Virus record (IMG/VR): IMGVR_UViG_3300032093_011587
Coordinates: 1 to 40,731 of that record
From: a virus
Strand: one strand, 5' to 3'
DNA: 40,731 nt
Both the position numbers and the translations under genes were made by a program. Shown here one piece after another: positions 1,695-37,552 of this stretch; the first letter of the stretch is position 1; each line of letters opens with the position of its first letter. The notes below the pieces were generated by a model. It was not told where the DNA came from. It saw only the letters and a list, made by a program, of their open reading frames with translations, and ran no database searches.

Positions 1695-1707
1695 CACCCC
1701 TCCCATC
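1695..1707 (+). repeat. 13-bp motif copy, exact (intergenic leader)
   Basis: CACCCCTCCCATC, one base after the TGA of the SGNH gene and directly followed by GGAGAC, the ribosome site of the 1721 gene. Confidence 0.9.
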
Positions 1708-1720
1708 GGAGACACCGCCA

Positions 1721-3010
1721 ATGTCCGAGTCCGTTCCCCCGCCCACCGACTGGGGTCAGTCGGCCGTCTTGTGGCTTCAAGCCCACGGCCTCACCGCCAT
1801 GACCCCCCAGATCCGCGCCTCTGACCACTACCTTTGCGCCCACGATCCGTTCCGCTACTACGTCGAACGCCGTCTGGGCCTCCAGTCCATGTTCACCTAC
1901 TCCGAGGCGCTCCGCCATGGCTCGTGGCTCCACAAGTGCCTCGAACTCGACCCCTTCAACGTCAACTGGACCCTCGACCAGTGGCAACGCGCCCTCTCTC
2001 CCCACATCGCCGCCCGGCAGGCCGAACTCACCACCGTCTGCGACACGCTCAACATCCACGGCGACAGCCGCAAGGCCATCCTCCGCCGCGAAGAGGAAGA
2101 CGCCCACACCGTCGCAACCTGGTACTCCGCCGAACGCCGCGTGCCCATCGGCAACGGGCCCTGCTTCTCCCGCTTCCTCTGCAACCCCAACATCCAGATC
2201 CTGGGCCGCGAAGTCGGCCTCCGCATCAAGAACCCGTTCCACGCCGACCTGCCTCCCCTCGCGGGCCGCATCGACCTCCTCTACCTGAACCGCATCACCA
2301 ACGAGCTGGTCGTCCTCGACATCAAGTCCACCTCTCTCACCACCAGCGCTCGCCTCGCGGGCTGCGGCTGGGAGTACGGCACCCTCCACTACATCTGGCT
2401 CCTCGAAGAGTCCCTGAAGGCCGGCCTCATCCACGACCGCTTCCCCGATCTGCCCACGGACGTCCGGGTCGGTGGCATGGTCCACGTCGCCTTCGAGAAG
2501 CCCAAGATCCGACTCTCCAACGAGGACCGGGACTTCGTCGTCGTCGAGCAGACCGTCAGCCGCGGCAAGAATAAGGGCCAGGTTCGCACCGAGAAGCAGT
2601 TCGACGGCCTTCCTCAGTTCCGCAACTACCTCCGCCGCGTCCAGGACTGGGCGCTCGCCGAGAACGACTACCTGCACCTGCGGGCCGAACGCTCCCTCGA
2701 CCCCGTCATCAACATGTCGTGGACGCACGCCCGAGCCACTCCCCAGAACACCAAGCCCGGCGTCCTCGACCCGGCCCGCCTCCGCCACTTCCAGCTCAAG
2801 CACGATCTCATCGCCCACTACGCGACGGTCGAGCCTGAGCCTCACAACTTTCCCGTGGACCACCTTTCGTTGGTGGACCGCGACAGCAACCGGCACACTG
2901 CATGGGGTGCCCTCGCTGTTTCATCCCCGTCTCAATGGCCCACTCTGATCCGCCAGCAGAGACTCGTCACCGTGCACCGTGAGGACCCTCTCCATGAACC
3001 CGCAAACTAG
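1721..3010 (+). CDS. PD-(D/E)XK nuclease (RecB/Cas4-like exonuclease)
   Basis: 429 residues. The RecB/Cas4-type PD-(D/E)XK arrangement is visible: GSWLH with His71, Glu164 in LGREVGL, Asp185 in GRIDLL, and Asp200-Ile-Lys202 in VVLDIKST. Members of this family are metal-dependent nucleases; in phages they resect or process ends for recombination. The neighbours are a Sak4-like ATPase and a candidate ssDNA-binding protein, the classical company for a recombination exonuclease. The residues after about 330 show no known domain. The ATG is preceded by a 13-bp motif copy and GGAGAC. The 3' end overlaps the next gene by 17 bases. Confidence 0.85.
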   Translation: MSESVPPPTDWGQSAVLWLQAHGLTAMTPQIRASDHYLCAHDPFRYYVERRLGLQSMFTYSEALRHGSWLHKCLELDPFNVNWTLDQWQRALSPHIAARQAELTTVCDTLNIHGDSRKAILRREEEDAHTVATWYSAERRVPIGNGPCFSRFLCNPNIQILGREVGLRIKNPFHADLPPLAGRIDLLYLNRITNELVVLDIKSTSLTTSARLAGCGWEYGTLHYIWLLEESLKAGLIHDRFPDLPTDVRVGGMVHVAFEKPKIRLSNEDRDFVVVEQTVSRGKNKGQVRTEKQFDGLPQFRNYLRRVQDWALAENDYLHLRAERSLDPVINMSWTHARATPQNTKPGVLDPARLRHFQLKHDLIAHYATVEPEPHNFPVDHLSLVDRDSNRHTAWGALAVSSPSQWPTLIRQQRLVTVHREDPLHEPAN

Positions 3011-3485
3011 CCCCATCGCACCCCCACCACCCCCACCGCCGCCACCGGCCACGCTCGACAAGAAGCGTGACGAGCGCCCCATCTGGCACGACCTCGAATC
3101 GTTCCAGGGCTGGGCCGTCCACATCTTCGGCGCCCTCATCCGGAACATCTTCGCCAACGGCGTCTCCTCCTTCGCCGAACTGCACCGCAAGGTCCAGGAC
3201 GAGCTGGAGGCCCGCGTGCCTGAAGACCACCTCCGCCGGTGGCTCCAGGCCATGGGCGACCCGTACGCCAACGCCTTCGCTCGGCGCCGCGTCATCAAGA
3301 TCGACCCGGTCGCACCGACCAACCTCGCTCCCACCCCTCCCACCGTCCCCACCGCCGCGGACGACGAGGCCCCGGAGATCGAGGTGCCCCCGGCCACCAA
3401 CCCGCGTCCGGCCGATCCGCCGCTCGCTCCCGGTCAGCGTCCGCCCCAACCCGTCCTCGAATACACTGCCCCCACCACGTCGTAA
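2994..3485 (+). CDS. Pro-rich protein of replication operon, unknown
   Basis: 163 residues from the ATG at 2994 (GAGG eight to ten bases upstream; preferred over an upstream in-frame start deeper in the nuclease gene). It opens with a run of nine prolines, has a compact helical core at about 25-95 (Trp-, Ala- and charge-rich, with HDLESFQGWAVHIF and EDHLRRWLQAMG), then a disordered Pro/Ala tail. No family recognised. Its place between nuclease and Sak4-like genes suggests an accessory role in recombination or replication. The variant motif at 3332 lies in the Pro-rich tail. Confidence 0.75.
   Translation: MNPQTSPIAPPPPPPPPPATLDKKRDERPIWHDLESFQGWAVHIFGALIRNIFANGVSSFAELHRKVQDELEARVPEDHLRRWLQAMGDPYANAFARRRVIKIDPVAPTNLAPTPPTVPTAADDEAPEIEVPPATNPRPADPPLAPGQRPPQPVLEYTAPTTS
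3332..3344 (+). repeat. 13-bp motif variant (CCCACC end)
   Basis: CACCCCTCCCACC, one base from the consensus, in coding sequence. Its surroundings are C-rich and encode prolines, so this copy could be fortuitous. Confidence 0.45.
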
Positions 3486-3493
3486 ACCACTCG

Positions 3494-3506
3494 CACCCCT
3501 CCCATC
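3494..3506 (+). repeat. 13-bp motif copy, exact (intergenic leader)
   Basis: CACCCCTCCCATC in the 33-base gap before the Sak4-like gene, directly followed by GGAGAC as at 1695. Confidence 0.9.
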
Positions 3507-3518
3507 GGAGACACACCC

Positions 3519-4421
3519 ATGAACACAGTCGCGGCGGGCCGTTATGCCGGCCTTGGGGGCTTCTCAGGCCCCATGCGAATCCCGCTCAGCCGGTCCACCG
3601 TGCTGCTTTTCTCACTCCCCGGCAAGGGCAAGACCACCCTCGTCCAGACCAACCCTGACGCCTTCATCTTCAACTGCGACCAGTCCTCGACGGTCACGGC
3701 CAAGCCGCTCGCACTGATCTGGCCCGGCGTCTCGCCGACCGGCCAGCCAGTCAACGACGACGGGCGCCCCTTCGTTCTCACCTACGAGCATGTCCTCCGC
3801 AAGAAGGACGTCCTGATCCAGCTCGCCCGCGACAACAAGGAACGTCCGGCGACCGTGGTCATCGACTCGCTCACCACCTTCATCACCCTCGTCAAGCCCT
3901 ACGTCACGGCCAACGCCAAGGCGCTCAACATCTGGAAGGAGAACAACCCGCCCGAATCCTTCCGCGTTCTCTACGGGCCCGCCGCATACGACTGCGTCTA
4001 CGAGCAGGTCACCTCATTCGTGGCCGACCTCCGCAACGCAGGCTACGGGGTCACCATCCTTGCACACATCGTCAAGGAGAAGATCCCGCTCGGCGACAAC
4101 AAGTTCCTTCCCAGCGTCGACTTCACCTTTGGCGACGGCCTCTGGAAACGCCTCAGCGCCGTCGTCGACTACTCATGCCTCATCGACCAGGTGGTCGAGG
4201 CCGAGGAGACCGTTGGCACTCGTGAAGTGATGGTCGGTCCGGGCAAGACCCAGACCGTCAAGCACGTCGAGACCAAGAACGTCCTCTGCTCCTACATCGA
4301 CTGTCTCAATCCCGAGTACGCGGGCATCAGCAAGACCCGCAGCATGTTCCCCCGCTTCAAGCTCCCGGCCGTTGACAGCTGGGCCGCTCTCGAAGCCCAT
4401 CACGCCAAGCACAGCATCTGA
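3519..4421 (+). CDS. Sak4/RecA-like AAA ATPase (single-strand annealing)
   Basis: 300 residues. Walker A is S32-LPGKGKTT-40 and the Walker B-like strand is ATVVIDSLT with Asp116. Length and layout (P-loop near the N-terminus, RecA core, conserved LAHI strand at about residues 185-190) fit the phage Sak4/AAA_24-type ATPases, which anneal single strands or act in RecA-like recombination and usually depend on an SSB. An SSB-like gene follows immediately. Translation is led by a motif copy plus GGAGAC, the same leader as the nuclease. The stop codon lies inside a 12-bp perfect palindrome (4417-4428). Exact subfamily is inferred from layout. Confidence 0.85.
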   Translation: MNTVAAGRYAGLGGFSGPMRIPLSRSTVLLFSLPGKGKTTLVQTNPDAFIFNCDQSSTVTAKPLALIWPGVSPTGQPVNDDGRPFVLTYEHVLRKKDVLIQLARDNKERPATVVIDSLTTFITLVKPYVTANAKALNIWKENNPPESFRVLYGPAAYDCVYEQVTSFVADLRNAGYGVTILAHIVKEKIPLGDNKFLPSVDFTFGDGLWKRLSAVVDYSCLIDQVVEAEETVGTREVMVGPGKTQTVKHVETKNVLCSYIDCLNPEYAGISKTRSMFPRFKLPAVDSWAALEAHHAKHSI

Positions 4422-4439: not shown

Positions 4440-4452
4440 CACCCCTCCCATC
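4440..4452 (+). repeat. 13-bp motif copy, exact (intergenic leader)
   Basis: CACCCCTCCCATC after the palindrome and T5, followed by TGGAGAC, the ribosome site of the 4468 gene. Third consecutive replication gene with this leader. Confidence 0.9.
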
Positions 4453-4467: not shown

Positions 4468-5043
4468 ATGTCCGCTATCGACCAATCAGTTCTCTCGCTC
4501 GCTCAGTCCCTGACCGGCACCCTCAACGGCGTCCGTGCCAACGATGGCTCCGGCGGCCAGTGGCCCCCCCACGGCGAGCACGTCGTCGTCGTCGAAGGCT
4601 TCACCCTGAAGCCCGAGAAGGTCAAGTACGGCCCCAAGGGCCAGAACCCCCAGGAAGCTGACGGCTTCAGTGCCCGCTTCACCTACCGCCTCTACCACGA
4701 CAAGTCCAAGCCCGGCTACGACCCCAAGTCGGGCGACTACCTGGAGTTCCTGGGCTCGCCCATGACCTTCATGCCCGGCTGGGAGAAGCTCGGCGACAAG
4801 GAGCAGACCCGCTTCCGTATGTCCGCCGAACGCTTCATCCAGTCGGCCGTCGTTCTGCTCGGCCTCCCCGAAGACCAGTGCAAGAACCCGGTCGCTGTCC
4901 TGCCGAAGATCGTCGCCGCCGTGGCCACCAAGCCCAGCGTCAGCCTCTTCTGCGAGCACCGGGAGAACACGCAGAACGGTGAGACCAAGGTCTACAAGAC
5001 CGACTTCATCCGCGAGTTGCTGAACGGCCAAGTCTCGGCCTAA
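4468..5043 (+). CDS. Putative ssDNA-binding protein
   Basis: 191 residues from the ATG at 4468, chosen for its GGAGAC; an upstream in-frame start would overlap the Sak4-like gene and run through the leader repeat. The centre (about 35-150) alternates short beta-like stretches with aromatic and lysine residues (VVVVEGFTLKPEKVKY, FTYRLYHD, YLEFLGSP), and a helical C-terminus follows. No clear OB-fold signature or acidic tail can be asserted. The call rests mainly on position: phages with Sak4 commonly carry an SSB or single-strand accessory protein next to it. It could be another recombination accessory protein. Confidence 0.6.
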   Translation: MSAIDQSVLSLAQSLTGTLNGVRANDGSGGQWPPHGEHVVVVEGFTLKPEKVKYGPKGQNPQEADGFSARFTYRLYHDKSKPGYDPKSGDYLEFLGSPMTFMPGWEKLGDKEQTRFRMSAERFIQSAVVLLGLPEDQCKNPVAVLPKIVAAVATKPSVSLFCEHRENTQNGETKVYKTDFIRELLNGQVSA

Positions 5044-5060: not shown

Positions 5061-5073
5061 CACCCCTCCCATC
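5061..5073 (+). repeat. 13-bp motif copy, exact (before terminator)
   Basis: CACCCCTCCCATC, 17 bases after the stop of the SSB-like gene and two bases before a terminator stem. Confidence 0.9.
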
Positions 5074-5638: not shown

Positions 5639-5673
5639 GGTACATGGTATAACCTTCGGGCGCAAGCACTTAG

Positions 5674-5698
5674 GCGTACCACCGCGTACCAGCGTACC
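5674..5698. repeat. Three direct repeats of GCGTACC
   Basis: GCGTACC at 5674-5680, 5684-5690 and 5692-5698, each followed by A, packed between the convergent terminator and the end of the 5703 gene. GTACC is also the core of repeats in the 34.9-35.0 kb region. Confidence 0.7.
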
Positions 5699-5702: not shown

Positions 5703-8700
5703 TCAGAAGCTGTCGAAGCTCGCGACCGCCCCGCCACCCACCGCGTCGAGCCGCCGCTGCACTTCGAGGGCCGCCTGCGTGTCCCTCGCCTGGGTGAGCC
5801 GGTCTCGGTGGGTCGCCGTCGGTCCCGACGTGAGCCCTGCCGGTACGTTCCGGCCGTACCCCGACGCGTCCGCCATCTGGGCATACCGGTCCCGGACGGC
5901 CGGGTTGATCCGGTCCAGCACCCGCTCGGTCCGGCCCACCACCTGCGACTGGAGGGCCCTCTCCAGGTCCGCCTGGGTCACCGACAGCGGCACCTTGAAC
6001 CGACGCTCGAAGTCCTTCCGGATCCGATCGGCCCGGCCCGGATCGTTCCCCACCAGTGCGTTGATGTACTGGTTCCGGACCTTCACGATCTCCTCCCGCT
6101 GCTTCACCAGGTACTGGTCGAGCTGCCCCTGTTCCTGCCACTGCCCCAGGTCCAGCCCCAGCCCCCTCGCAATGACCTCCGCGGGCGTCCGGTACTCAAT
6201 GAGCTTGCCGTCGGCCTTGAACACCGGGACCTCGCCGGATGGGAGGGGTGCGTTCCAGCCCACATACGTCGCCTGCATCGACCCCGGCAACCCCGCCAGA
6301 CCCTCCACTTCGGGGGCCTCCGGGCTCAGTCCAACCATGCGGTGCAACGCCACACCCGCCGGCGCCAACCGGAAGATCGCACTGCTCAGCAGACGGCGGT
6401 CCTCCGTCGCCAGTCCAAGGATGATGTCACGGGGAATCGCGACCACCGGGGGCAACGGAATGATCTGCTCGTTCGGGTCCGTGAACCTCGGCCCGTACAG
6501 CAACCCCGGTGCCGCCTCCCCGTACAGACCACGCGAGATGTCCACACCGACGAGGCCCTTGGTCACCTCGTACGTCAGCGCCGAGAGGCCCAGGCCCCGC
6601 AGCGTCGTCTGGGCCAGTCCCTTCAGGTACGTGCCGCTCTCGCCCGCCGCAATCAGCGGCGTCTCATAGACGGCGTTCATCGTCGTCCGGAGCGGGAACG
6701 TCAGGAACATCTTCACGAGCGGGTTGGCCGCGAACGAGTTCTCCTGGAAGATTCGCAGCGTGTTCTCCGGCCCGCTACCGAACTGGTACATCGACACGAA
6801 CTCGCGTGTCTCCTCCCAGAACGACGCATCCAGCTGCCGTCCGGCCCTCACGTTCACGCGCTCGAACAGGTGGGCCGACACGCTCCGGTTCATGGCCTCG
6901 CTCGCGCTGAAGAGACCCAGCAGCGAGTCCTGCAACTTGTCCGTGAACGTCTCCCGCCGGTTCGCCCGCAGCACCCCGTCAATCATCTGGTGCGGATCAG
7001 CCGACAGGCCCAGGACGTTCACCCCTCCCGTCCCCTTGCCCATGTGCTTGAAGGCGGCCCGCATGGCCTCTTCCTTCTGCTCCATGGTCGCCGTGAGACC
7101 GAGCGAGATTCGCCGCTTCGTGTAGTCCGCCATCTCCCCGAAGGCCTTGCCGTACGCCACGACCGCGTCGTCGAGCCGCCCGTGCAGGGCCGCACCGATG
7201 ATCGGCTGCGTCAGGTTCAGCACCACGCTCGCCAGGTTCAGACCCAGGTGCGTCCCGTACAGGTAGTTGGCCACCCCTTGCGACAGGGAGCGGGGCGTCA
7301 TGTACGACTCGGGGTCCGCGATCTCGCGCATCCGGCCGATGAAGCCCTTGCCTGTGTCACCGAACTTCTCGATCGTCCTGCCCAGGAAGCTGTTCGCGAA
7401 CCACTTGGCGGCCTGCCGGTTCTGCAACTCCTGGTTCCGCCGCATCATGTACTTCGGTCCGGCTACGTGCAGCATGTTCGGGATCAGCATCTCCCGCATG
7501 ATCCGCTGCCGCTCCGGGTCCGCCTCACGCAGCATCGCCGCGTCCGCCATGTCGGCCACACTGACCTTGACGCCCTGTCGGATCGTCTCGCCTTCCATGA
7601 TGGGCTCGTTCGCCTTGTGCATGACGTCGAGCACTTCTTCACCGTGCTGGCTGGGCACGAACCGCTTCGTGTAGTCCACGGCCCCCTGGCCCGGATCGTT
7701 CATCAGCGAGATCGCCCGGTCGTTCCCCTTCATCACGTGCACCGGCGCCGCGTACGTGTCCCACGCCGCGGTCCGACCCATGCCCACCACGTACCGGTTC
7801 CGCGACACGCTCACATTCGAGTCGACCACCAGCTGCGGCCGGCTGTTCTTCGCCGAGTCCTCAATCGCCTTCTTCGCACTCTTGATCAGCCGCTCCCCGT
7901 CCTTGCCCAGCAGGCCCCTCGCCTGCATCCGCTCCAGGTACTCCGGGTCCCACAGGATCGACTCGCTCGTCAACGGGGCCAGCCGACCGCCCAGCATGTT
8001 GCTCGCGGCGAACGGTGCCGTCTCCAGCATGTTCCGCTCCGCATCACTCAGGTTCACGTGCGGCGTCTGCCCGTTGATGCGGCCCTGCTTCAACGCGTTC
8101 TTCGACAGGAAGAACTCGCTCCGCTGCGGCTGCAACAGTCGCTCCAGCACCTCGCCCACCCGCTTCCGCCGTTCCGGAGCGCTATGCGTGCGTGCGATCC
8201 GGCTCAGCTCGTCCCAGCTCGACACCGCCAGCAGGGCCTCCATGCCCTCCACATTCTCCGTCAGCGTGGCCACATCCGCAAACTGATTCGGGCCGCCACT
8301 CGCCTTCAGCTTCCGATGCAACCCGTTCGCCAGCAGCGTCAGCTTGTCCTCGTCAATCACGAAGTCGCCCTCACCCACGAGGGTCCCGTCCGCATCGACC
8401 TTCTTCGTCGCGTCCCAGAGGTCTTCGCGGCCGACCGCCCGCACGTACAGCTCCTTCTGAGCCACCGCGTTCCGCGTCAGCCACTTCACGCCCGCGTCCC
8501 CATACAACTCCTCGAACCGCGCCCGCACTCCCTCCTCGAAGACCTGCGGTTCCATCCGAAAGTTGCCCTCTTCCACGCTAATCGACCGGTCGTCCAGCTT
8601 TGTCGGACCCCACGGCGTCTCCATCGTCCCTTGGTCCTTCACCAGGTAACGCCCGTAGTCCTCGTAGTACAGGTCGAACGGGGTCGCGGGGATGTTCCGA

Positions 8701-9626
8701 CCCTCCTCCAGCCGGGTCTTGAACTCCTCCTTCTTCATCCGGTCGAACCGCGCCTCGTACTCCTTCTTCAGCCCATACAGCCCGTCGCTGTCCTGCTCCT
8801 TCGTCGAGTACCAGATCTTGCGGGCCTGCTCCTCCTCACGCCGGAACTGGTCCGCCATAGCCCGCAGCTGCGCCGCCTGCCCCGCCGGATTGTTCTTGAT
8901 GCCTTCCTCGAACTCGATGTCGCGGACACCCTTCTCCGGGTCGAACATTTTGGCCCGCAGCTTCACCTGAAGCGAGTCTCGCACTTTCTTCGTCCGGTAC
9001 TCGCCGCTGGCGACGGCGGCGGCGTGGTCGTGGAACTCCTGCAAGATGTCGCGCTCAGCACTGCCTCGCGTGTACTCGTACGGGTTCAACTGGTCCTCGA
9101 CGGACCACTTCATCTTGACGCCTCGCTTCGCCGCCACCTGCTCGATCGCCTCGATCATCTCCTGGTCGGCACGAGCCAGCGTGGGTGACACCCCTCCCAT
9201 CACCCGCTCCAGCCGCTGCGACGCGGCCCGGACCGTCTCGGTGATGTTGGACCCGGCGAACTCGCGGCCGTACGTCCGGAACTGCGAGAAGATGGAGAGG
9301 CCCTTCTTGTTCTGCGACACGAACCGGCGGGCGGGTTCCAGCATCGAGCGCCCGGCCTTCGCGGCACCCCACCCCAACGGGCTGCTCAGAAACCAGAACC
9401 AGATGAAGGGGTTCGTCACCGTCTCCATGAAGGTCTTGCTGAGCCGGTCGTTCGGGTCCACCACCGAGTCCGCGATGCTGGTTCGCTCCTCCGGCGTCAG
9501 ATTGTTCGGACTCAGGAACAGGTCCTTGAACGACGACAAAGCAGCCTCTCCTTCGAGAAGCTGGGCCGCCGCGATCTGCGGGGTGTCATAGATGCGGACC
9601 GGCTCAAACGCCGGAATCTGAGCCAC
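5703..9626 (-). CDS. Very large (1307 aa) internal virion/ejection-type protein
   Basis: 1307 residues, the last and longest gene of the leftward virion operon. GTG start at 9626 with GGAGGAG just upstream. The N-terminal quarter has a short hydrophobic patch (about 70-90, NPFIWFWFLSSPLGWG). The middle is charged and helical. The last third has several amphipathic or hydrophobic segments (LGLNLASVVLNLTQPIIG; MFLTFPLRTTMNAVYE; PPVVAIPRDIILGLA). Size, position after smaller Ala/Gln-rich virion genes and membrane-active-looking segments resemble the large proteins that podoviruses package inside the head and eject into the cell. No lysozyme or protease motif was seen. The ejection role is inference; a large polyvalent or tail-tip protein is an alternative. 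Confidence 0.75.
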   Translation of the reverse strand: MAQIPAFEPVRIYDTPQIAAAQLLEGEAALSSFKDLFLSPNNLTPEERTSIADSVVDPNDRLSKTFMETVTNPFIWFWFLSSPLGWGAAKAGRSMLEPARRFVSQNKKGLSIFSQFRTYGREFAGSNITETVRAASQRLERVMGGVSPTLARADQEMIEAIEQVAAKRGVKMKWSVEDQLNPYEYTRGSAERDILQEFHDHAAAVASGEYRTKKVRDSLQVKLRAKMFDPEKGVRDIEFEEGIKNNPAGQAAQLRAMADQFRREEEQARKIWYSTKEQDSDGLYGLKKEYEARFDRMKKEEFKTRLEEGRNIPATPFDLYYEDYGRYLVKDQGTMETPWGPTKLDDRSISVEEGNFRMEPQVFEEGVRARFEELYGDAGVKWLTRNAVAQKELYVRAVGREDLWDATKKVDADGTLVGEGDFVIDEDKLTLLANGLHRKLKASGGPNQFADVATLTENVEGMEALLAVSSWDELSRIARTHSAPERRKRVGEVLERLLQPQRSEFFLSKNALKQGRINGQTPHVNLSDAERNMLETAPFAASNMLGGRLAPLTSESILWDPEYLERMQARGLLGKDGERLIKSAKKAIEDSAKNSRPQLVVDSNVSVSRNRYVVGMGRTAAWDTYAAPVHVMKGNDRAISLMNDPGQGAVDYTKRFVPSQHGEEVLDVMHKANEPIMEGETIRQGVKVSVADMADAAMLREADPERQRIMREMLIPNMLHVAGPKYMMRRNQELQNRQAAKWFANSFLGRTIEKFGDTGKGFIGRMREIADPESYMTPRSLSQGVANYLYGTHLGLNLASVVLNLTQPIIGAALHGRLDDAVVAYGKAFGEMADYTKRRISLGLTATMEQKEEAMRAAFKHMGKGTGGVNVLGLSADPHQMIDGVLRANRRETFTDKLQDSLLGLFSASEAMNRSVSAHLFERVNVRAGRQLDASFWEETREFVSMYQFGSGPENTLRIFQENSFAANPLVKMFLTFPLRTTMNAVYETPLIAAGESGTYLKGLAQTTLRGLGLSALTYEVTKGLVGVDISRGLYGEAAPGLLYGPRFTDPNEQIIPLPPVVAIPRDIILGLATEDRRLLSSAIFRLAPAGVALHRMVGLSPEAPEVEGLAGLPGSMQATYVGWNAPLPSGEVPVFKADGKLIEYRTPAEVIARGLGLDLGQWQEQGQLDQYLVKQREEIVKVRNQYINALVGNDPGRADRIRKDFERRFKVPLSVTQADLERALQSQVVGRTERVLDRINPAVRDRYAQMADASGYGRNVPAGLTSGPTATHRDRLTQARDTQAALEVQRRLDAVGGGAVASFDSF
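6238..6250 (-). repeat. 13-bp motif copy, exact (in gene, sense)
   Basis: Reads CACCCCTCCCATC on the minus strand, coding APLPS within the 1307-aa protein. Confidence 0.9.
7020..7032 (+). repeat. 13-bp motif variant (CCCGTC end)
   Basis: CACCCCTCCCGTC, one base from the consensus, antisense to the leftward gene. The same A-to-G change recurs at 28498, 29942 and 32413, so it may be a real sub-class. Confidence 0.7.
9189..9201 (+). repeat. 13-bp motif copy, exact (in gene, antisense)
   Basis: CACCCCTCCCATC on the plus strand; the gene reads it as MGGV. Confidence 0.9.
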
Positions 9627-10093: not shown

Positions 10094-11449
10094 TCAGATG
10101 AGACCGAGCAACTGTAGCAGCTCCTCCGTCTCCGTTCCCTCGGACACCTCGCCCGTGATCGGGTCGAAGCCCCGGTAGTTCGGCTTGACGTTGGCTCCCG
10201 TCAGTCCCCGCTGTTTGTTGATGTCCAGCAGCCGAAGCAGTTCCGCGGCCCTCGGATCACCCGAGACCTGCTTTCGACCGGCCCACTGATCGCGGGCCTT
10301 CCCCTGCAACTGCGAGATGATGATGTCCCGGTCGGACAGCTTCGGCGGAGGCGGGGCCTGCTTCACCCCTCCCATCCGCTCCAGCAGAGCCTTCCGGTTA
10401 CGGCCGGTCGTGTCAAGATCGGCGAGGCTCGCCTTCTCCAACGGCTTGCTCTTCGGGGCGACCGGACGTCGGCTCGCTGCAAACCGGGCGGCCGGGTTGT
10501 ATGCCTGCTCGTGCTCGCGGTCCGCGTCCTTCTTCCACTTCCCGGCCTGCCGAGCACCCTCACCCTCGTGGAAGGCCGTGCTCTCGACCGCCTCGACGTC
10601 CCCGTCGAAGTCGCGGGCGCTCCGGGCCAGCCCGTCGTTCATGGCCTTCCCGTAGCCCTTGGCGGCGGCCGTCTGGGCGAACTGCGGGTTGAATCCCGCT
10701 CCCTCCCGGCTCTTGGCCTGGTTCATCCAAAAGGCTTCGCCCGCCTTCTTGTGCGGCGACAGGTCCACCCCTCCCACCGGGACACTCGCAGCCTCACGCC
10801 CGGCCCCGAACTGTCGGAGCGGCGATGGGAGGGGTGCCACTTTGGTGTTGTTGTTGCGGATGGACCACCGCAGCACGCTCTCCGTGCCGGGGAAGTAGCG
10901 AGCCAGGTCCATCATGCGGAGGTTGGCGAACGACGGCATCTGCATCATCGCCGTCAGCAGCTGGGTCTTCGCGCCGTACGGCACGTCGTCCCGCCGCAGG
11001 AAGTCGTCAAGGAAGCGGGCCTCCGGGATGACCTTCAGGTTCCGGGTGTCACCGGGGCCGATGTACTCGTTCGTGAAGACGCTCTGACTGACCTGCCGGA
11101 CCGGGTCGTACTCGTTCACCTTGCTGCCGCGGTCGAGACGGGCGCGGGTCTGGCCGTCCTTCGCCTTGTACCGCACGATGGCGGGCGGGTCCCGGAACCG
11201 CTCCAGGAGAGCGGCCACAGGGTTCCGCTCGTTCTTGGTGTTCCAGTCCCGCTCCACGTAGCGGGGCGGAGGCTCCGGCTGAATCTTGGGCTTGCCTTCG
11301 TACTTGACCGGCTCCTTGCTCCGGGCCAGCAGCTTCTGGACGAACAGTTTCTCAGGCGCCGGACCTGCCTCTTTGAACAAAGCGACGTCAGCCGCACGAC
11401 GACCTGCGGAAGGCGTGAACAGCTTCGGCATTTTGATCCGCTTTGCCAT
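10094..11449 (-). CDS. Virion-operon protein, 451 aa, unknown
   Basis: 451 residues. A basic, Pro-rich N-terminus (about 1-75) leads into a mixed helical body; no catalytic motif or membrane segment is visible. The charged, disordered centre (about 255-345) carries repeated Arg/Ala/Glu stretches. The gene carries three copies of the 13-bp motif or its variants (10364, 10766, 10824), the highest density in any gene, read as MGGV, VGGV and APLPS. It lies in the row of internal-virion-type genes, so a packaged internal protein is a fair guess. The upstream gene's TAA is three bases before the ATG. Confidence 0.78.
   Translation of the reverse strand: MAKRIKMPKLFTPSAGRRAADVALFKEAGPAPEKLFVQKLLARSKEPVKYEGKPKIQPEPPPRYVERDWNTKNERNPVAALLERFRDPPAIVRYKAKDGQTRARLDRGSKVNEYDPVRQVSQSVFTNEYIGPGDTRNLKVIPEARFLDDFLRRDDVPYGAKTQLLTAMMQMPSFANLRMMDLARYFPGTESVLRWSIRNNNTKVAPLPSPLRQFGAGREAASVPVGGVDLSPHKKAGEAFWMNQAKSREGAGFNPQFAQTAAAKGYGKAMNDGLARSARDFDGDVEAVESTAFHEGEGARQAGKWKKDADREHEQAYNPAARFAASRRPVAPKSKPLEKASLADLDTTGRNRKALLERMGGVKQAPPPPKLSDRDIIISQLQGKARDQWAGRKQVSGDPRAAELLRLLDINKQRGLTGANVKPNYRGFDPITGEVSEGTETEELLQLLGLI
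10364..10376 (+). repeat. 13-bp motif copy, exact (in gene, antisense)
   Basis: CACCCCTCCCATC on the plus strand; read as MGGV by the leftward gene. Confidence 0.9.
10766..10778 (+). repeat. 13-bp motif variant (CCCACC end)
   Basis: CACCCCTCCCACC, one change from consensus, 45 bases from the start of the opposite-strand exact copy at 10824-10836. Confidence 0.6.
10824..10836 (-). repeat. 13-bp motif copy, exact (in gene, sense)
   Basis: CACCCCTCCCATC on the minus strand, read APLPS. With 10766 it forms an inverted pair. Confidence 0.9.
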
Positions 11450-29826: not shown

Positions 29827-30079
29827 GGACGGGTTCCTTCGGTCGTGCAGCCCCCATCGGCGTCAACCGCATGGAGCTCACAGGCACGGGGACTGTAGGG
29901 GACACCCCTCCCATCTCAACAACCGGGCTTGGAGCGGGCGTGACGGGAGGGGTGGGAGTGCGGGACTCGCCGAAGCGGGGGCCGGTGCCGTAGTAGCAGG
30001 CCAGCAGCTCCTTGAAGAACGTGAGGGGTACGACGACGTGGGAACCGGCGAGGAAGTTGGACGGGACTTCGGTGCTCAA
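29792..30079 (-). CDS. Small Pro-rich protein between terminase and portal
   Basis: 95 residues from a TTG at 30079 that overlaps the terminase stop (TTGA), the same coupling that starts the terminase. The N-terminal 45 residues are hydrophobic/aromatic (VVVPLTFFKELLACYYGTG), the rest Pro/Thr/Ser-rich and basic. The 3' end overlaps the portal start by 35 bases. Two motif copies (29903 exact, 29942 variant) face each other inside it. Function unknown; possibly a packaging or connector accessory. The frame is part of a longer open stretch whose upstream part is a shadow of the terminase gene. Confidence 0.6.
   Translation of the reverse strand: MSTEVPSNFLAGSHVVVPLTFFKELLACYYGTGPRFGESRTPTPPVTPAPSPVVEMGGVSPTVPVPVSSMRLTPMGAARPKEPVHEPRIKQAAEK
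29903..29915 (+). repeat. 13-bp motif copy, exact (in gene, antisense)
   Basis: CACCCCTCCCATC; with the inverted variant at 29942 it forms an inverted pair 26 bases apart. Confidence 0.9.
29942..29954 (-). repeat. 13-bp motif variant (CCCGTC end)
   Basis: CACCCCTCCCGTC on the minus strand, inverted relative to 29903. Confidence 0.7.
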
Positions 30080-32031
30080 ATGACGGACTCCTGGTCGGGG
30101 GCGTCGGGGAAGGGACCGAGCAGGTCGGTCGTGATCATGTCGTGCGGCAAAGCGCTGACGAGCGGGATGGAGGTCCCGGGGATATGCCGCTTGCCCTGCC
30201 GGAGGAGGGCGAGGGCGTCCACGGCCTCGGACTTGGCCAGCTGGGTGTGGCGGATGCCGTGCTTGCCCCGGATGACCATGCTGGACATGGAGAGCGTGTC
30301 GATCTCGTCGTCGTTGGCCAGGCCGCCGTCGTTGGAGCTCGGGTTGAAGGACTCGATCTGCTCGAAGAGGCGGGTGTAGGGACCGTGCCGGCCGCGACGC
30401 CAGAGCGGCAGCTTCACGAGGCCGAACTCGAACCGGGTGTCCATGGTGGAGATCTTGGCGGTCTTGGTCATGGCGCCGGGCCGGAGGTCTTTGACGAGCG
30501 GCGTGTGCGTCAGGCCGAGGTTGGTCGTGACGCGGGTCTGCACGGCCGACCGGTAGCGGATGTACAGCTTGATCGACTCGCGGACGACCTCGACGAAGAT
30601 GATCGGGCAACGCCACTTGTCGGCCTGGATGAGCGAGGCGTTGAGCAGCTCCCCGTCGGTCTTCCGGTCGGACCAGAGGTCGAGCGAGAAGAGGATGTTG
30701 TTGGCGTACAGGGCCATGAGGTGCGAGACCCGGCGGTCCGAGGTCGCGGTCTCCGTGAAGGCGCTGTCGACGGTCATGAAGAGCTTGGACTGGGCCAGGA
30801 AGTCCATGACGGAGAGGCGGTGGACGACGTCGGGCTTGTCGTGGTCCCGGAAGCAGATCTTCGCCCGGGAGAGAAGGGGCTGGTCGTTGAAGATCTCGTC
30901 GGCCTCTTCGAGCCACCAGGCGTGCGTGCCCTTCGTGTCGGCGTCGAGCTTGAAGAGGAGCTGGTCGGAGGTGCCGGGGAGGCCCAGCATTTCCTTGTTG
31001 TAGACGGCCGAGCCCAGCATTTTCTGGATCTGGGTGATGGTGCGGGTAGACTCGGGCAGTTTGAGGCGGACCTTCTCCTCCTCGTCGGCGGGCCACATCT
31101 CGGGCCAGCAGGAGCGGAGACGGCCGGTCTGCTCGTCGACCCAGGAGGCGCGGATGTGGAGGCGGGACCAGAGGTCGAAGCGGGGGTCGACGGCTCGGGG
31201 GCCTTCGGGCGTGTTGACCGTGTCCATGGCCTGCCAGAGGTAGTGCCGCTTGGAGACGAAGGTGCCGACCCAGTGCAGGAAGGTGTTCGCACGCAGGGTC
31301 ATCGGCATGGCGATGGAGAAGAGCAGTCGCTCCATGTAGGCCCGGATCTCGTCCATGGAGGTCGAGCCGGACTCGTCGTACTCGGGGTCGTCCAGCTTGA
31401 AGATGCGGGGACGCAGACCGCGGAGGCGGGAGCGGGCCGAGACGCACCGGAGCCACGAGCCGTTGTTCAGGAAGAACATCTGGACGCCGGTGGACTTCGC
31501 GCCCCGGTTGGGCTTGAGGGTCGAGGCGTCCCACTCGGGCGCGAAGTCGGCCTGGATGCGGCCGTTCTCGTAGCACTGGTCCTTGACGAGCTGGCCCGTA
31601 TAGAGGGCGTTCTCGTTTGTGGAGGTGGCGTACGCGACCGAGTAGCGGGGCATCGAGACCATCCGGAGGATGACGTCCTTGCGGATGAAGGTGGACTTGG
31701 CGCCGCCGCGGGGGGCCAGCGTGATCGAGAGGGGGTTGACCCAGTGGGACGCGATCTCCCAGTGGTAGGCGGGCGTCCGGAGCGGCGGCATGTCGTAGAA
31801 GCCCGGCTCGTGCAGGGACTCGACGTCGTCCGCGAGGTAGTGCAGGTCGAAGAAGTTGAGCGAGTTGATCAGGCGGCGAGCGCGTTCGGCCGCCGTGCCC
31901 TCCAGGGACCACTGCCGGGCGGCGTTGACCCGGGCCTGCCGCTGACCCTCCTGCGTGAGGTCGTGATAGTCGAGCGGCAGGGGGTGCAGCGGACAGTCGA
32001 GGGGGATGGCTTTGATCGGGGTGAGACTCAA
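30076..32031 (-). CDS. terL: Large terminase subunit (packaging ATPase/nuclease)
   Basis: 651 residues from a TTG at 32031, chosen because it overlaps the stop of the gene before it (TTGA). A longer upstream open frame would swallow that gene. ATPase: deviant Walker A APRGGAKST (about residues 106-114) and Walker B-like RIFKLDD (about 209-215). C-terminal RNase H-like nuclease: VDSAFTE-type Asp within the central VMDF...TVDSAF strand, then LWSDRK, and a late acidic DDEIDTLSMSS. These mark a dsDNA-phage large terminase that cuts and translocates DNA into the procapsid. Neighbours (TerS-like upstream, portal downstream) agree. Confidence 0.88.
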   Translation of the reverse strand: MSLTPIKAIPLDCPLHPLPLDYHDLTQEGQRQARVNAARQWSLEGTAAERARRLINSLNFFDLHYLADDVESLHEPGFYDMPPLRTPAYHWEIASHWVNPLSITLAPRGGAKSTFIRKDVILRMVSMPRYSVAYATSTNENALYTGQLVKDQCYENGRIQADFAPEWDASTLKPNRGAKSTGVQMFFLNNGSWLRCVSARSRLRGLRPRIFKLDDPEYDESGSTSMDEIRAYMERLLFSIAMPMTLRANTFLHWVGTFVSKRHYLWQAMDTVNTPEGPRAVDPRFDLWSRLHIRASWVDEQTGRLRSCWPEMWPADEEEKVRLKLPESTRTITQIQKMLGSAVYNKEMLGLPGTSDQLLFKLDADTKGTHAWWLEEADEIFNDQPLLSRAKICFRDHDKPDVVHRLSVMDFLAQSKLFMTVDSAFTETATSDRRVSHLMALYANNILFSLDLWSDRKTDGELLNASLIQADKWRCPIIFVEVVRESIKLYIRYRSAVQTRVTTNLGLTHTPLVKDLRPGAMTKTAKISTMDTRFEFGLVKLPLWRRGRHGPYTRLFEQIESFNPSSNDGGLANDDEIDTLSMSSMVIRGKHGIRHTQLAKSEAVDALALLRQGKRHIPGTSIPLVSALPHDMITTDLLGPFPDAPDQESVI

Positions 32032-32363: not shown

Positions 32364-32784
32364 CGCGACGGGCGGCTCCTTCGGGGAGGGCGATGTCGAT
32401 GGGGGCTGCGGGGACGGGAGGGGTGAAGGCAGTGACTGTTTTGGCAGTGCGGGTGACGGAGGCGGTGGCAGAGACACTGGTCTTCTCCTGTTGGGTGAGG
32501 GTCGCGATGCGACCGTTCAGTTTGAGGCACGTTTCAATGTAGGCGGTGAGTCGGGCGATGGCCGCCAGCTGGATCTTGGGGTCCGGGTCGTTGCAGAGCC
32601 GCATGAGCTGCTGGACCAGGTCGGTCTGCGTGAAGGGGGCGCCCCCGGCACGGAGAGCGGCTTCGAGACCTTCGAGCGAGAAGAAGGTCTGCACGACGGC
32701 CAGGTCAGGCGTGGGCTGGTGCAGGAGCTCCGACTGCGGCTCGGTCGGGATGGGAGGGGGTGGTGTGATGGTCGCTCGAAGCAT
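32335..32784 (-). CDS. Putative small terminase subunit (TerS-like)
   Basis: 149 residues. Central helical segment at about 30-95 with LVQQLMRLCNDPDPKIQLAAIARLTAYIETCLKLNG, the Asp-Pro-x-hydrophobic repeat style common in TerS oligomerisation domains, followed by a Thr/Pro-rich tail. It lies immediately before TerL. No clear N-terminal HTH was seen, so TerS is inferred from position and this helix. It overlaps the upstream HTH gene by 80 bases and the downstream one by about 30. Motif copies at 32413 and 32749. Confidence 0.5.
   Translation of the reverse strand: MLRATITPPPPIPTEPQSELLHQPTPDLAVVQTFFSLEGLEAALRAGGAPFTQTDLVQQLMRLCNDPDPKIQLAAIARLTAYIETCLKLNGRIATLTQQEKTSVSATASVTRTAKTVTAFTPPVPAAPIDIALPEGAARRVDPRPEKEG
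32413..32425 (-). repeat. 13-bp motif variant (CCCGTC end)
   Basis: CACCCCTCCCGTC on the minus strand in the TerS-like gene. Confidence 0.65.
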
Positions 32785-33283
32785 GGGTGGCAGCCTGAAG
32801 GATCTGGGCGACGACGGGGTTCTCTTTGATGCGGTGCTTCAGGAGGTCCTGGCCGCGCTTGCGGTTCTTCTCGGCAGTGTAGGCCATGAGGGCCAGGGCG
32901 TCGGCCCCCTTGCGTGCCTTCCGGAGAATGTCGCTGCGGGCCTCGCGTTCCGTGAGGTGGGAGGAGAGCATGAGCTGCGAGATCGAGATGGCGGCCTGGT
33001 CCGGCGTGAGGGTGGGAGGGGTGACCCGGCCCTTGGACTTGGAGGGTGAGCCCGGCGTGGTGTGGCACGGGGGGTCGTGGATCTGGAGCGAGGAGATGAG
33101 CGCGATGGCGAAGGTCGTGTGCTCGATGTAGCGGCCGCCCTTGAGTTCGAGGGAGGGGACGCCGAGCGTGCGTAACCACGCGCGGAATTGGCGTGTGGAC
33201 ATGCCCAGCGCTTTGCAGAATGTAGACTCGTGGTAGAGTCGCACGTATGGAAGAGAAATGATCGGCGGGCCTTGATGTCGCAT
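32705..33283 (-). CDS. HTH (MerR/recombinase-like) DNA-binding protein
   Basis: 192 residues from the ATG at 33283. Upstream in-frame starts exist to 33367 but run through the divergent control region; no start has a strong ribosome site, so this is a judgement. Residues about 15-60 are a helix-turn-helix (STFCKALGMSTRQFRAWLRTLGVPSLELKGGRYI), in the style of MerR/excisionase folds with a wing Gly-Gly-Arg-Tyr. The second half is Lys/Ala/Glu helix plus His/Pro tail. First gene of the leftward operon and next to the divergent helicase promoter, so it is a candidate regulator or the DNA-recognition half of the packaging complex. Confidence 0.65.
   Translation of the reverse strand: MRHQGPPIISLPYVRLYHESTFCKALGMSTRQFRAWLRTLGVPSLELKGGRYIEHTTFAIALISSLQIHDPPCHTTPGSPSKSKGRVTPPTLTPDQAAISISQLMLSSHLTEREARSDILRKARKGADALALMAYTAEKNRKRGQDLLKHRIKENPVVAQILQAATHASSDHHTTPSHPDRAAVGAPAPAHA
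32749..32759 (-). repeat. 11-bp core motif copy
   Basis: Core CCCCTCCCATC on the minus strand, in the overlap of the HTH and TerS-like genes; the TerS-like frame reads it PPPIP. Confidence 0.7.
33011..33023 (-). repeat. 13-bp motif variant (CCCACC end)
   Basis: CACCCCTCCCACC on the minus strand within the HTH gene. Confidence 0.5.
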
Positions 33284-33411
33284 CGGGAGAAGGGTAGAGT
33301 GTGGTGCCGGACGAGTCACCCCTCCCATCACGCACCGATGAGTCACGTCAGCGCCGGCACCCCACACAACAGAACGGAATGGATATGCCCCGAAGAGGGC
33401 AGGAGTGTCAC
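33284..33411. promoter_or_regulatory. Divergent control region of virion operon and helicase
   Basis: 128 bases between the two divergent starts. It holds a gapped inverted repeat (GTGTGGTGCCGG at 33299-33310 against CCGGCACCCCACAC at 33354-33367, two inserted bases), the exact motif copy at 33317-33329, and two GAGTCAC direct repeats (33313-33319, 33340-33346). No clear -10/-35 pair was found. It must contain promoters for both directions unless transcription comes from further away, and looks operator-rich. Confidence 0.55.
33317..33329 (+). repeat. 13-bp motif copy, exact (divergent region)
   Basis: CACCCCTCCCATC lies inside the inverted repeat between the leftward and rightward starts; if regulatory, this copy is the best placed. 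Confidence 0.9.
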
Positions 33412-34857
33412 ATGAGCGAAATGACTGTAAAGGCGGCCGAGGGTGTGCAGTTGACGCGGCGTGAGCCGGGACAGGCCGCGGAGGCCGTGATGAGGCTGTT
33501 GCGGACGCCGAGCGGACGGCAGGGCGTGTACTGGCGAGGCGGCGAGCTGATGCTCTGGGCCGGGAGCCGGTGGCGTGTGCTGTCGGTGGTGGAGGCGATG
33601 GACCTGATGCTGCTCCTGCTGAAGGACGCGGTCGTGATCAAGCGGACCGAAGATGACGGGGAGCGGAAGGTCCGGCTGTCGCCGAGTGTGGGGTTTGTGG
33701 AGGACACGCTGCGGTTCGTGCAGGCGATGGCCCGGACGGACAGCGATGTGCCAGGCTGGAAGAACGGGTCGGGAGGGGAGCCGGACGCGGCGTGGTGCAT
33801 CCCGTTCGAGGACGTGGTGCTGGACGTGAAGACGGGCAAGACGTGGACAAGGGACGAGACGTGGTTCGGCACGATGGTCCTGCCGGTGCGGTACGAGGAT
33901 CTGGAGGGCGCGAAGGCGGAGCGGTGGGCCAAGTGCGTGGAGCAGTGGGCCTGCGGCGATGCGGAGTGGGGTCCGCTGTTGCAGATGTCGCTCGGGTACA
34001 TGCTGATGCCGGTGCGGAGGCTGCGGAAGTGCCTGCTGATCCAGGGTGAGACGGGCGGCGGGAAGGGCGTGATCCAGCATGTGGTGCGGGCGATGATGGG
34101 CCGGGCGTTGCAGATCAGCAACATGGAGGCGCTGGCGGACAAGCACGGCACGGTCGGGCTGGGCAGTGCACAGGGGTTGTGGGTGCCGGAAGTGACGAAG
34201 GGACGGGGCGAGAGCGCGAGGACGGTCGCGAGGCTGTTCAAGGAGATCGTGGGCGAGGATGGGCTCACGATCAACCCGAAGTTCGGGCAGGTGGAGCGGG
34301 GCGTGAAGTGCGGTGCGATGCTTGTGATGACGAGCAACGTGGTGCCGCAGCTGGAGAACGAGAGGGGCGGGCTGACCAACAAGATGCTGATGCTGCCGAT
34401 CCGGAAGAGCTTCGACAAGGGCGGGGCCGAGGTCGGGCTGAAGGACCGGCTGGTGCGGGAGGAGCTGGCGGGCATCGTGGGGTGGGCGGTGGAGGGGGCG
34501 AGACGGGTCGCGAAGGAGGTCGAGGAGCGGGGCGAAGTGAAGTGGCCCAAGCCGGAAGTGGGCGTCGAGATGGAGGAGGCGTTCCTGGTCGAGAACAGCC
34601 CGGTCGCGGCGTTCCAGGCGGTGTGCTTCGAGAAGGCCGCCAAGGGCTTCGTGGCGGGCGAGCTCGTGCGGCGGGCGTGGAAGGCCTGGGTGCGGGACCA
34701 GCTGCGGGGGCGGGAGCCGGAGGGCGTGAGTGAGCACAACCTGCTGACGAAGCTGGAGGACCAGGGCATGTGGGGCGTGGTCAAGAGCCGGAACGGGAGC
34801 GGTGGGAGCCGGGGCATGCGGGGCATGGTCCTGCGGGCCACCCGAAAGGTGGAGTAA
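33412..34857 (+). CDS. SF3 helicase (D5/P4-type, DUF5906-like)
   Basis: 481 residues, ATG at 33412 with AGGAG six bases upstream. N-terminal part has the typical D5-like WCIPFEDVVLDVKTG stretch (about 128-142). Helicase core: Walker A GETGGGKG at 212-219, Walker B-like strand LWVPEV (256-261), motif C LVMTSN (304-309) and the GGLTNKMLMLPIRKSF block (319-334) as in poxvirus D5/P4 SF3 enzymes. No primase zinc finger or acidic primase triad was found, so this seems to be helicase only. Likely opens the origin (34.9 kb lies directly downstream). Its sense strand is G-rich while the other rightward genes are C-rich, in line with a position-dependent skew. Confidence 0.85.
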   Translation: MSEMTVKAAEGVQLTRREPGQAAEAVMRLLRTPSGRQGVYWRGGELMLWAGSRWRVLSVVEAMDLMLLLLKDAVVIKRTEDDGERKVRLSPSVGFVEDTLRFVQAMARTDSDVPGWKNGSGGEPDAAWCIPFEDVVLDVKTGKTWTRDETWFGTMVLPVRYEDLEGAKAERWAKCVEQWACGDAEWGPLLQMSLGYMLMPVRRLRKCLLIQGETGGGKGVIQHVVRAMMGRALQISNMEALADKHGTVGLGSAQGLWVPEVTKGRGESARTVARLFKEIVGEDGLTINPKFGQVERGVKCGAMLVMTSNVVPQLENERGGLTNKMLMLPIRKSFDKGGAEVGLKDRLVREELAGIVGWAVEGARRVAKEVEERGEVKWPKPEVGVEMEEAFLVENSPVAAFQAVCFEKAAKGFVAGELVRRAWKAWVRDQLRGREPEGVSEHNLLTKLEDQGMWGVVKSRNGSGGSRGMRGMVLRATRKVE

Positions 34858-36403: not shown

Positions 36404-37024
36404 ATGCCATCCACTCCCTCCCATCCCCGCCTCATCACCGTCTCCCTCCACCGCCTCTCCTCGTGCTCCATATCCCTCTCGCACCTGCCTATCCCGCCCC
36501 AGTCCACCCACTCCCTCCCCCTCTGCTCTTCCCAGCTCCTCTCCCTGCTCAACGCGACCTCCCACTCGCTCTGCATACTGCCCCTCGTCCTCCCCGTCCA
36601 CCTCCCCTCCTACTCCCCGGCCGACCGCAACGCCCTCGCCTCCCTCACCGAGCGCCTCGACCAGCTCGGCTTCAACACCCTCGCCCACTTCACCACCGGC
36701 CACACCTTCTGCCTCTTCTCACCCCTCGCCACGGACCGCCTCCCCGACTTCCTCCGCTCTTCCGACCTCCTTCTCCCGGGCGGCCACATCGCCGACTTCC
36801 CCGTCTCCCCCACCACCACCGCCCTTGCCACCCCCATCACCCCCACCCTCCTCGGCGGCCTCGACGACCCCGGCGAGCCCTGCCCCTGCTGTCGCCGCCT
36901 TGACTGCGGCTGCCCCGACAACTGCTCCAACTGTGCCCAGTCCCGCACCCCCGTCCGTTGCTCCAACTGCAACCGCTGGGCCTACTCCTCCCCCTGCGAA
37001 AAGTGCCTCCCCGACCGCCACTGA
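36404..37024 (+). CDS. Zinc-ribbon-like protein, 206 aa
   Basis: 206 residues, ATG at 36404 with AGGAG upstream. The first 150 residues are Leu/Ser/Pro-rich, without a confident fold. The C-terminal 50 hold four CxxC pairs: Cys160/163, 174/177, 186/189 and 198/201, plus Cys162, 168 and 170, so two zinc ribbons are likely. Cys-rich tails of this type bind nucleic acids or partner proteins. Alone on the strand between a terminator and the leader of 37085. Nothing ties it to a known family. Confidence 0.68.
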   Translation: MPSTPSHPRLITVSLHRLSSCSISLSHLPIPPQSTHSLPLCSSQLLSLLNATSHSLCILPLVLPVHLPSYSPADRNALASLTERLDQLGFNTLAHFTTGHTFCLFSPLATDRLPDFLRSSDLLLPGGHIADFPVSPTTTALATPITPTLLGGLDDPGEPCPCCRRLDCGCPDNCSNCAQSRTPVRCSNCNRWAYSSPCEKCLPDRH

Positions 37025-37025
37025 T

Positions 37026-37036
37026 CCCCTCCCATC
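37026..37036 (+). repeat. 11-bp core motif copy (after stop codon)
   Basis: CCCCTCCCATC one base after the TGA of the zinc-ribbon gene; the TGAT then C-run arrangement matches the copy at 1695. Precedes the leader CTTTCACCCCAGGAG. Confidence 0.8.
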
Positions 37037-37062
37037 CCACCGCCCCACCGGGCCGTGGGCTG

Positions 37063-37077
37063 CTTTCACCCCAGGAG
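37063..37077 (+). repeat. Leader repeat CTTTCACCCCAGGAG, copy 1
   Basis: 15-base sequence ending in the AGGAG ribosome site, whose start is 22 bases before the ATG at 37085; identical at 37573-37587. Confidence 0.85.
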
Positions 37078-37084
37078 TCCTTTC

Positions 37085-37534
37085 ATGTCCCAACTCTCTT
37101 TCCATCAGGCTCTCGATCGCATCCGCACTGAACCCCGCATCGCCGCAGTCGCCATCTACCTCATCACCCAGATCCCCAACGTCGACGCGACCGCCCGCCA
37201 GCTCATCATCCAGGGCTTCCACGCCAAGATGGCCGAGCGCACCTCCGAAGCCCTCGACGCCATCAACCACCACCACACCCTGCTCCGGCGACAACTAAGC
37301 ACCCTCGACTCCGTACTCACCGGCGTCAACAGCGATCTCGCCGACGAGAAACGCCGCCACAAAGCCCTATCCCTCTTCGTGGCCGACCTCGCCAAAGAGG
37401 GCCTCCGCTGCGACCTCAACCCCACCCTCAACTGCTCCGACACCCAGGTCCTCTACGCCTCCTTCGCCAACTACCTCACCGACCAGGACACTCGCCTCCG
37501 CGCCCGTGCCCAAGCCGCTCTCGACGCCAACTGA
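37085..37534 (+). CDS. Unknown helical protein, 149 aa
   Basis: 149 residues, all helix by composition. About 45-90 is a Leu/His/Arg/Glu coiled-coil stretch (EALDAINHHHTLLRRQLSTLDSVLTGVNSDLADEKRRHKAL). One Cys pair near the end. AGGAG ribosome site within a repeated leader shared with the next gene. No family recognised; could be a small regulator or a binding protein. Confidence 0.72.
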   Translation: MSQLSFHQALDRIRTEPRIAAVAIYLITQIPNVDATARQLIIQGFHAKMAERTSEALDAINHHHTLLRRQLSTLDSVLTGVNSDLADEKRRHKALSLFVADLAKEGLRCDLNPTLNCSDTQVLYASFANYLTDQDTRLRARAQAALDAN

Positions 37535-37541
37535 CCTCTCG

Positions 37542-37552
37542 CCCCTCCCATC
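37542..37552 (+). repeat. 11-bp core motif copy (after stop codon)
   Basis: CCCCTCCCATC seven bases after the stop of the 37085 gene, followed by a CCCC-tgcc-GGGG hairpin and the second leader repeat. Confidence 0.8.

Follow-up and report, generated by a model that had tools for sequence, protein, structure and literature searches.

A lineage-wide family of short polar DNA sites with clade-specific sequences in phage genomes

Introduction

What is the role of a 13-bp sequence that recurs on both strands along a viral genome? The question is raised by a stretch of 40,731 nucleotides (IMG/VR virus record IMGVR_UViG_3300032093_011587, positions 1 to 40,731; hereafter the window), in which CACCCCTCCCATC is present in 15 exact copies and its core in 21 (the 15 exact copies and six with the 11-bp core only). 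An earlier note, made from the sequence alone, had described this repeat, and all 15 exact start positions, the six additional core positions and the four occurrences of a variant ending in CCCGTC were present where it had placed them. It likened the repeat to the stoperators of mycobacteriophage L5, and also considered a partition, packaging or replication site and a site for a host factor. Here, we show that a whole phage lineage carries short asymmetric DNA sites of one family, of which the motif is a member; their sequence is clade-specific, and their single genome-wide polarity is kept regardless of gene direction. We also weigh the functions that such sites may have.

Results

The motif far exceeds chance expectation

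The window aligns over its full length, with a single mismatch, to record IMGVR_UViG_3300042691_039422. This record is 58,138 bp long, carries a terminal direct repeat of 69 bp and yields a 58,069-bp circle. The earlier note had described the motif as dispersed over the whole genome; the window amounts to 70% of this circle. The circular assembly comes from another sample, and two more samples contain the same phage (99.99-100% identity). On the full circle there are 21 exact copies and 33 copies of the core, compared with 0.19 cores expected under an order-3 Markov model. When up to two mismatches were allowed, the window held 30 sites, against 2.4 expected and a maximum of 8 in 100 dinucleotide shuffles, and the best 11-mer reached a log-likelihood of 137 in the real genome, the highest value across 20 simulated genomes being 16. 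The earlier note had proposed codon-preserving shuffles as the comparison by which the motif should stand or fall. It came through this comparison, because 200 such shuffles gave a mean of 0.12 and a maximum of 1 genic exact copy, against 14 in the real sequence. These data confirm that the dispersed motif is real.

According to our gene calls, which come from our own codon-usage predictor, six exact copies in the window are intergenic and not seven as had been counted, the copy at 9189 falling inside a leftward gene. Nor did the rule that rightward genes carry the motif only in the sense direction survive on the full genome, where rightward genes contain five exact copies and two of these, at 49492 and 55064 on the circle, are antisense. 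A promoter or leader element was rejected as a candidate, the sites being mostly genic and without any tie to gene starts. Literature searches with the 13-mer and with the class consensus strings described below matched only unrelated items.

Each clade of relatives carries its own version

At least 190 relatives of the terminase large subunit (TerL) are present in IMG/VR, most of them on incomplete contigs. The window's 13-mer was absent from all three distant relatives examined. The earlier note had suggested looking for a co-varying motif in related phages; indeed, k-mer enrichment showed that almost all relatives that were long enough have a dispersed C-rich motif of their own, with about 8-40 copies per genome in the lineage. 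Read on the G strand, the classes are GATGGGAGGGGTG (the window), ATGGGAGGGGGAC, ACGGGAGAGGGGG, GGGAGGGGTT, CAGTGGGGG, GAGTGGGGG, AGTGGGGGGA, CGTGGGGGGAC, TTCTGGGGGAT, GGCTGGTGGGG and TGGTGGTGGGGAAA. All of them share a tract of four to six G residues and differ mainly 5' of this tract. On the TerL tree the classes are clade-specific and independent of GC content: the GTCCCCCCAC class occurs in phages of 46% and 60% GC, and the CAGTGGGGG class spans 49-67% GC. A C4/G4 run was part of the top motif in 24 of 27 lineage loci, compared with 2 of 43 unrelated viral contigs of the same size. Dispersed repeats were also noticed in two unrelated viral contigs, namely a palindrome, TAACAATGTTA, whose 13 copies resemble an operator or partition site array (L182), and GGACTGACCTA, with 7 copies (L219).

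The motif is selected as DNA

When orthologues from close relatives were compared, identity at synonymous third positions was 86% within motifs (483/560) and 70% in the 60-bp flanks (4140/5921), a difference whose p value of 5e-18 is nominal because the counts pool overlapping genome pairs. Amino-acid identity was the same in motifs (74%) and flanks (76%), which rejects protein-level conservation as the cause of motif conservation. These comparisons indicate that the motif is selected as DNA. In the scaffold-like gene, the clade's own motif occurs in 18 of the 22 genomes that have the gene; 21 of 22 copies are antisense, their position varies and several lie in poorly conserved linkers.

One polarity runs through the genomes

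Polarity was measured relative to the direction of TerL for 412 sites in 23 genomes, the sites being defined with an expectation-maximization matrix and a score threshold that misses weak sites. The G strand lies along the TerL direction at 298 sites and against it at 114, and it does so for the majority of sites in 23 of 23 genomes and 12 of 12 motif groups. This holds in genes running with TerL (158:65), in genes running against it (69:17) and between genes (71:32); additional clades gave 91:50, and the window's phage 28:11 overall. In TerL-direction genes, CCCC outside motifs splits 2970:3168 (comparison with the motif, p 3e-11), so the polarity there is not compositional, and strand skew was rejected as its cause both for these genes and for intergenic sites. 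The density of G sites is similar in genes with TerL (0.247/kb) and against it (0.223/kb). Along the genome the polarity shows no flip, as for a one-way process. Mean spacing is 1.3-5.7 kb, and the sites are spaced a little more evenly than random placement would give (Wilcoxon p 0.0015). Intergenic DNA, 10.9% of bases, holds 103 of the 412 sites.

No match among phage records and no lysogeny genes were found

Among 50,697 phage records, neither megablast with window positions 1-25000 nor tblastn with TerL returned any match. A scan with a TerL profile over one genome for each of 84,980 bacterial and archaeal species returned a single relative, on a 22.8-kb contig of a Myxococcales metagenome-assembled genome (MAG). 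In this 3.6-Mb MAG, which need not be the host, TCCCCCCACT occurs 21 times, with 19 copies on three contigs and 2 elsewhere; one of the three is the phage contig, and the other two are probably further phage pieces. The lineage relative in this MAG (contigs C7, C18 and C72) may be a hint of a possible host or a binning error. In addition, among 80 listed IMG/VR stretches with the 14-mer CACCCCTCCCATCC, more than one exact 13-mer occurred only in pieces of the window's phage. Both the MAG count and the 14-mer scan disfavour a host genome as the source of the motif.

With positive controls that worked, tyrosine integrase (PF00589) was found in none of 29 viral records, and serine integrase (PF00239) and ParB (PF02195) in none of 23, which bears out, for the records searched, the earlier remark that no integrase is visible. 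HTH_3 gave matches in 3 of 23 records, all weak and below the curated cut-off. The lineage is large, uncultured and apparently non-lysogenic.

Conserved genes include candidate reader proteins

The nuclease, Sak4-like and OB-fold proteins (Table 1) form a core module in the lineage. The nuclease matches PF12705 above the cut-off (E 4e-9), and its structural model (predicted local distance difference test, pLDDT, 86) has AddB as top Foldseek matches (E 1.5e-5) and VIA Z values of 13-15 to AdnA and AddB. The OB-fold protein has 191 residues (174-191 in the lineage) and was modelled at pLDDT 82; its structural matches are mostly SSB, RPA and PrgE, none with E <0.001 and the best with Z about 6, which weakly suggests an OB-fold binder of single-stranded DNA. 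The conserved DNA genes also include a family A DNA polymerase and, less widely, UDG-like and ERCC4-type proteins, the ERCC4-type nuclease family being present in 13 of 23 genomes. Relatives encode the polymerase in one frame (about 665 aa), and the window's phage in two open reading frames (ORFs) (L018:18471-19922 and L018:17301-18329; circle 53226-55847), through a frameshift, an insertion or a split gene. A RecD/Dda-like helicase (L019:225-1358; circle 51790-52923) was seen in the window's phage only.

The helix-turn-helix (HTH) proteins 32705 and 40482, which the earlier note had put forward for gel shifts, have no BLAST homologue in the other 22 genomes; for this reason they probably do not account for an element of the whole lineage, and we rejected both singletons as its reader.

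As for other genes of the window, most structural genes had no PHROGs match, and within their block two adjoining genes (20387-22020) have glycosyltransferase- and sialyltransferase-type PHROG matches. The leftward 1307-aa gene 5703-9626 is conserved in 21 of 23 relatives, and the rightward 1183-aa ORF antisense to it (5637-9188) is probably spurious. The adjacent genes 38161-38544 and 38534-38926 cluster together by BLAST as tandem duplicates and have no homologues in the other 22 genomes.

Table 1 Positions of motif copies and of conserved genes in the window
Feature	Positions	Strand	Context or remarks
Exact copy, CACCCCTCCCATC	1695..1707	+	Intergenic, 1 bp past a stop, 13 bp ahead of the nuclease gene start
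Variant CACCCCTCCCACC	3332..3344	+	Genic
Exact copy	3494..3506	+	Intergenic, upstream of the Sak4-like gene
Exact copy	4440..4452	+	Intergenic, upstream of the OB-fold/SSB-like gene
Exact copy	5061..5073	+	Intergenic
Exact copy	6238..6250	-	Genic
Variant CACCCCTCCCGTC	7020..7032	+	Genic
Exact copy	9189..9201	+	Antisense in leftward gene 5703-9626
Exact copy	10364..10376	+	Genic, antisense
Variant CACCCCTCCCACC	10766..10778	+	
Exact copy	10824..10836	-	Genic, sense
Exact copy	14358..14370	-	Genic, sense
Exact copy	15067..15079	+	Genic, antisense
Core variant TCCCCCTCCCATC	19687..19699	+	
Exact copy	19938..19950	+	Genic, antisense
Core variant CTCCCCTCCCATC	20418..20430	-	
Core variant TACCCCTCCCATC	21037..21049	-	
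Exact copy	24907..24919	-	Genic, sense
Exact copy	27481..27493	+	In the scaffold-like gene
Variant CACCCCTCCCGTC	28498..28510	+	
Exact copy	29903..29915	+	Intergenic
Variant CACCCCTCCCGTC	29942..29954	-	Intergenic
Variant CACCCCTCCCGTC	32413..32425	-	Intergenic
Core variant ACCCCCTCCCATC	32749..32761	-	
Variant CACCCCTCCCACC	33011..33023	-	
Exact copy	33317..33329	+	Intergenic
Core variant ATCCCCTCCCATC	37024..37036	+	
Core variant CGCCCCTCCCATC	37540..37552	+	Intergenic
PD-(D/E)XK nuclease, AddB/AdnA/RecB-type nuclease domain	1721..3010	+	Core gene, 19/23 genomes
Sak4-like RecA-fold recombinase	3519..4421	+	Core gene, 21/23 genomes; phrog_124 E 1e-10, PF13479
OB-fold, SSB-like protein	4468..5043	+	Core gene, 21/23 genomes
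Terminase large subunit TerL	30076..32031	-	phrog_38 E 8e-24
D5-like helicase	33412..34857	+	Core gene; phrog_6088 E 1e-36, PF19263

Discussion

The motif resembles Chi (RecBCD/AddAB; GCTGGTGG in E. coli) in being short, asymmetric, G-rich on one strand, dispersed in genes, over-represented, polar and variable among clades, and Chi sites are described as G-rich, polar, dispersed and clade-variable, at about one per 5 kb (PMC8022716). Moreover, the Chi octamers GCTGGTGG and GGTGGTGG, both in that published list, are contained in two of the motif classes. Unlike Chi, the motif is carried by phages of a lineage that looks virulent, and in the single bacterial genome examined it is rare. Its over-representation exceeds 100-fold, whereas lambdoid phages lacking recombinases or inhibitors enrich host Chi about 2-3-fold (PMC3784561). 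Because of this enrichment, a longer unit and a sequence that follows the phage clade, we propose, at somewhat less than even confidence, that the motif is a polar site similar to Chi but owned by the phage, and that it works with the AddB/RecB-type nuclease, the Sak4-like recombinase and the OB-fold protein in concatemer processing or packaging. That these three proteins form a core module is in keeping with the proposal.

In such a scheme, the terminase would cut the concatemer and leave the packaged end covered and the other end exposed. An exonuclease entering at the exposed end would come upon each site from the 3' side of its G strand. Slowed or stopped there, it would leave single-stranded DNA that the phage's OB-fold protein and Sak4-like recombinase could take up, and the concatemer would be protected and rejoined, not degraded. 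In lambda, it is the terminase-freed end that is read, and an enzyme reading Chi arrives from the G strand's 3' side (PMC2082072). If packaging runs in the TerL direction, as we assume, the observed polarity would be the one that a Chi model predicts. Since the motif tracks phage clade, the protein that recognises it is probably encoded by the phage; the conserved AddB/RecB-type nuclease is the first candidate.

Several points weigh against this proposal. The sites are 10-13 bp long, compared with 5-8 bp for known Chi, and a Chi octamer is not the unit: CCACCAGC sits almost exclusively within the 10-mer CCCCACCAGC (35/40, 22/26 and 28/33 cases), so the octamer was rejected as the functional unit. 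The 429-aa nuclease aligns only to AddB 767-1134, that is, to the nuclease domain without the motor part, and a RecD-like helicase was found in 0 of the 22 other lineage records searched. As for polarity, about 28% of sites are oriented opposite to TerL, a C-strand background of 75:25 accounts for the bias in genes opposite TerL (p 0.31), and in TerL-direction genes the window's own phage shows a weak bias of only 9:7. Furthermore, the pooled tests take related genomes as independent, and the count over motif groups is the safest figure.

Other functions must be weighed against the Chi-like proposal, and three of them, replication initiation, a polar roadblock and a nick site, stay in contention. 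The motif might be a replication site, a place on one template strand at which a phage replication protein starts, is loaded or switches, for example in lagging-strand initiation during one-way rolling-circle synthesis. The one-way polarity across the whole genome, the rather even spacing of 1.3-5.7 kb and the family A polymerase and D5-like helicase encoded by the lineage all fit such a role. Known primases recognise about 3 nt. The motif is longer than such sites, a primase domain was not seen alongside the D5 helicase and 28% of sites point the opposite way, and we regard this role as unlikely though worth serious thought. Of the ideas in the earlier note, a replication or packaging site fits better than stoperators.

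A polar roadblock or silencer, in which a DNA-binding protein of the phage stops transcription (or forks) moving opposite to TerL, would agree with the single global polarity antisense to TerL-direction genes and with the more than twofold intergenic enrichment. However, concentration in the controlled operons would then be expected, whereas density is equal in both gene directions, and no lineage-wide HTH_3 regulator exceeds the cut-off. We consider this function rather improbable.

Site-specific single-strand nicks, as in T5, phiKMV-like and tf-like phages, are marked by a short asymmetric motif of about 9-14 copies that is common to divergent relatives (PMC3517423, PMC11780129). The present sites share these traits with the nick motifs (T5, phiKMV-like, tf/Rembedalsseter), as well as a strand bias relative to terL, and the ERCC4-type nuclease family of the lineage could be relevant to such an activity. 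In contrast to nick motifs, which are strictly on one strand and clustered on one side of TerL-oriented genomes, they divide about 72:28 between the strands and are spread throughout the genomes of these uncultured phages. An identity with nick sites is improbable.

Mimicry of a host motif, either host Chi or an FtsK-orienting sequence, has a precedent in lambdoid phages, which enrich host Chi (PMC3784561), and one class contains GCTGGTGG. However, the class follows phage clade and not GC, only 2 of 21 TCCCCCCACT copies in the MAG lie outside three contigs, and multiple exact 13-mers among the listed viral stretches with CACCCCTCCCATCC are confined to this phage's pieces. These results disfavour the host-factor site of the earlier note and make host mimicry very unlikely.

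Finally, repressor sites that silence a prophage are the least probable reading and are largely refuted: the likeness to Cluster A stoperators (L5, Bxb1) in length (about 13 bp), asymmetry, number (20-30 copies), intergenic and genic placement and covariation of the consensus with phage clade stands, but stoperators are oriented with transcription (PMC6550527) in temperate systems bearing an integrase or parABS, whereas the sites here keep the same density and polarity in both gene directions across the 23 genomes, the viral records yielded no integrase, ParB or cI-like repressor, and the scan of one genome for each of 84,980 bacterial and archaeal species turned up only one relative, within a MAG.

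Chi and FtsK-orienting polar sequences (KOPS) are genome-wide polar motifs known from bacterial chromosomes; the usual view of phages is that they either borrow Chi from the host or supply recombinases of their own. Like KOPS, the motif is G-rich, polar and dispersed; KOPS are 8-mers, and their polarity reverses between replichores because they point to dif, whereas the motif shows no flip. We see about an even chance that these clade-specific 10-13-bp polar sites are read by a phage protein in concatemer processing or replication, and would so be a viral, self-owned counterpart of Chi and KOPS in about a dozen variants. In practice, the motif classes flag the lineage in short metagenomic contigs. 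The lineage appears to combine its own recombination module with its own polar motif, and its specificity variants resemble a set of natural mutants of a protein-DNA code. The identity of the reader, the way its specificity changes and the marking by a phage of its own DNA ends thereby become testable.

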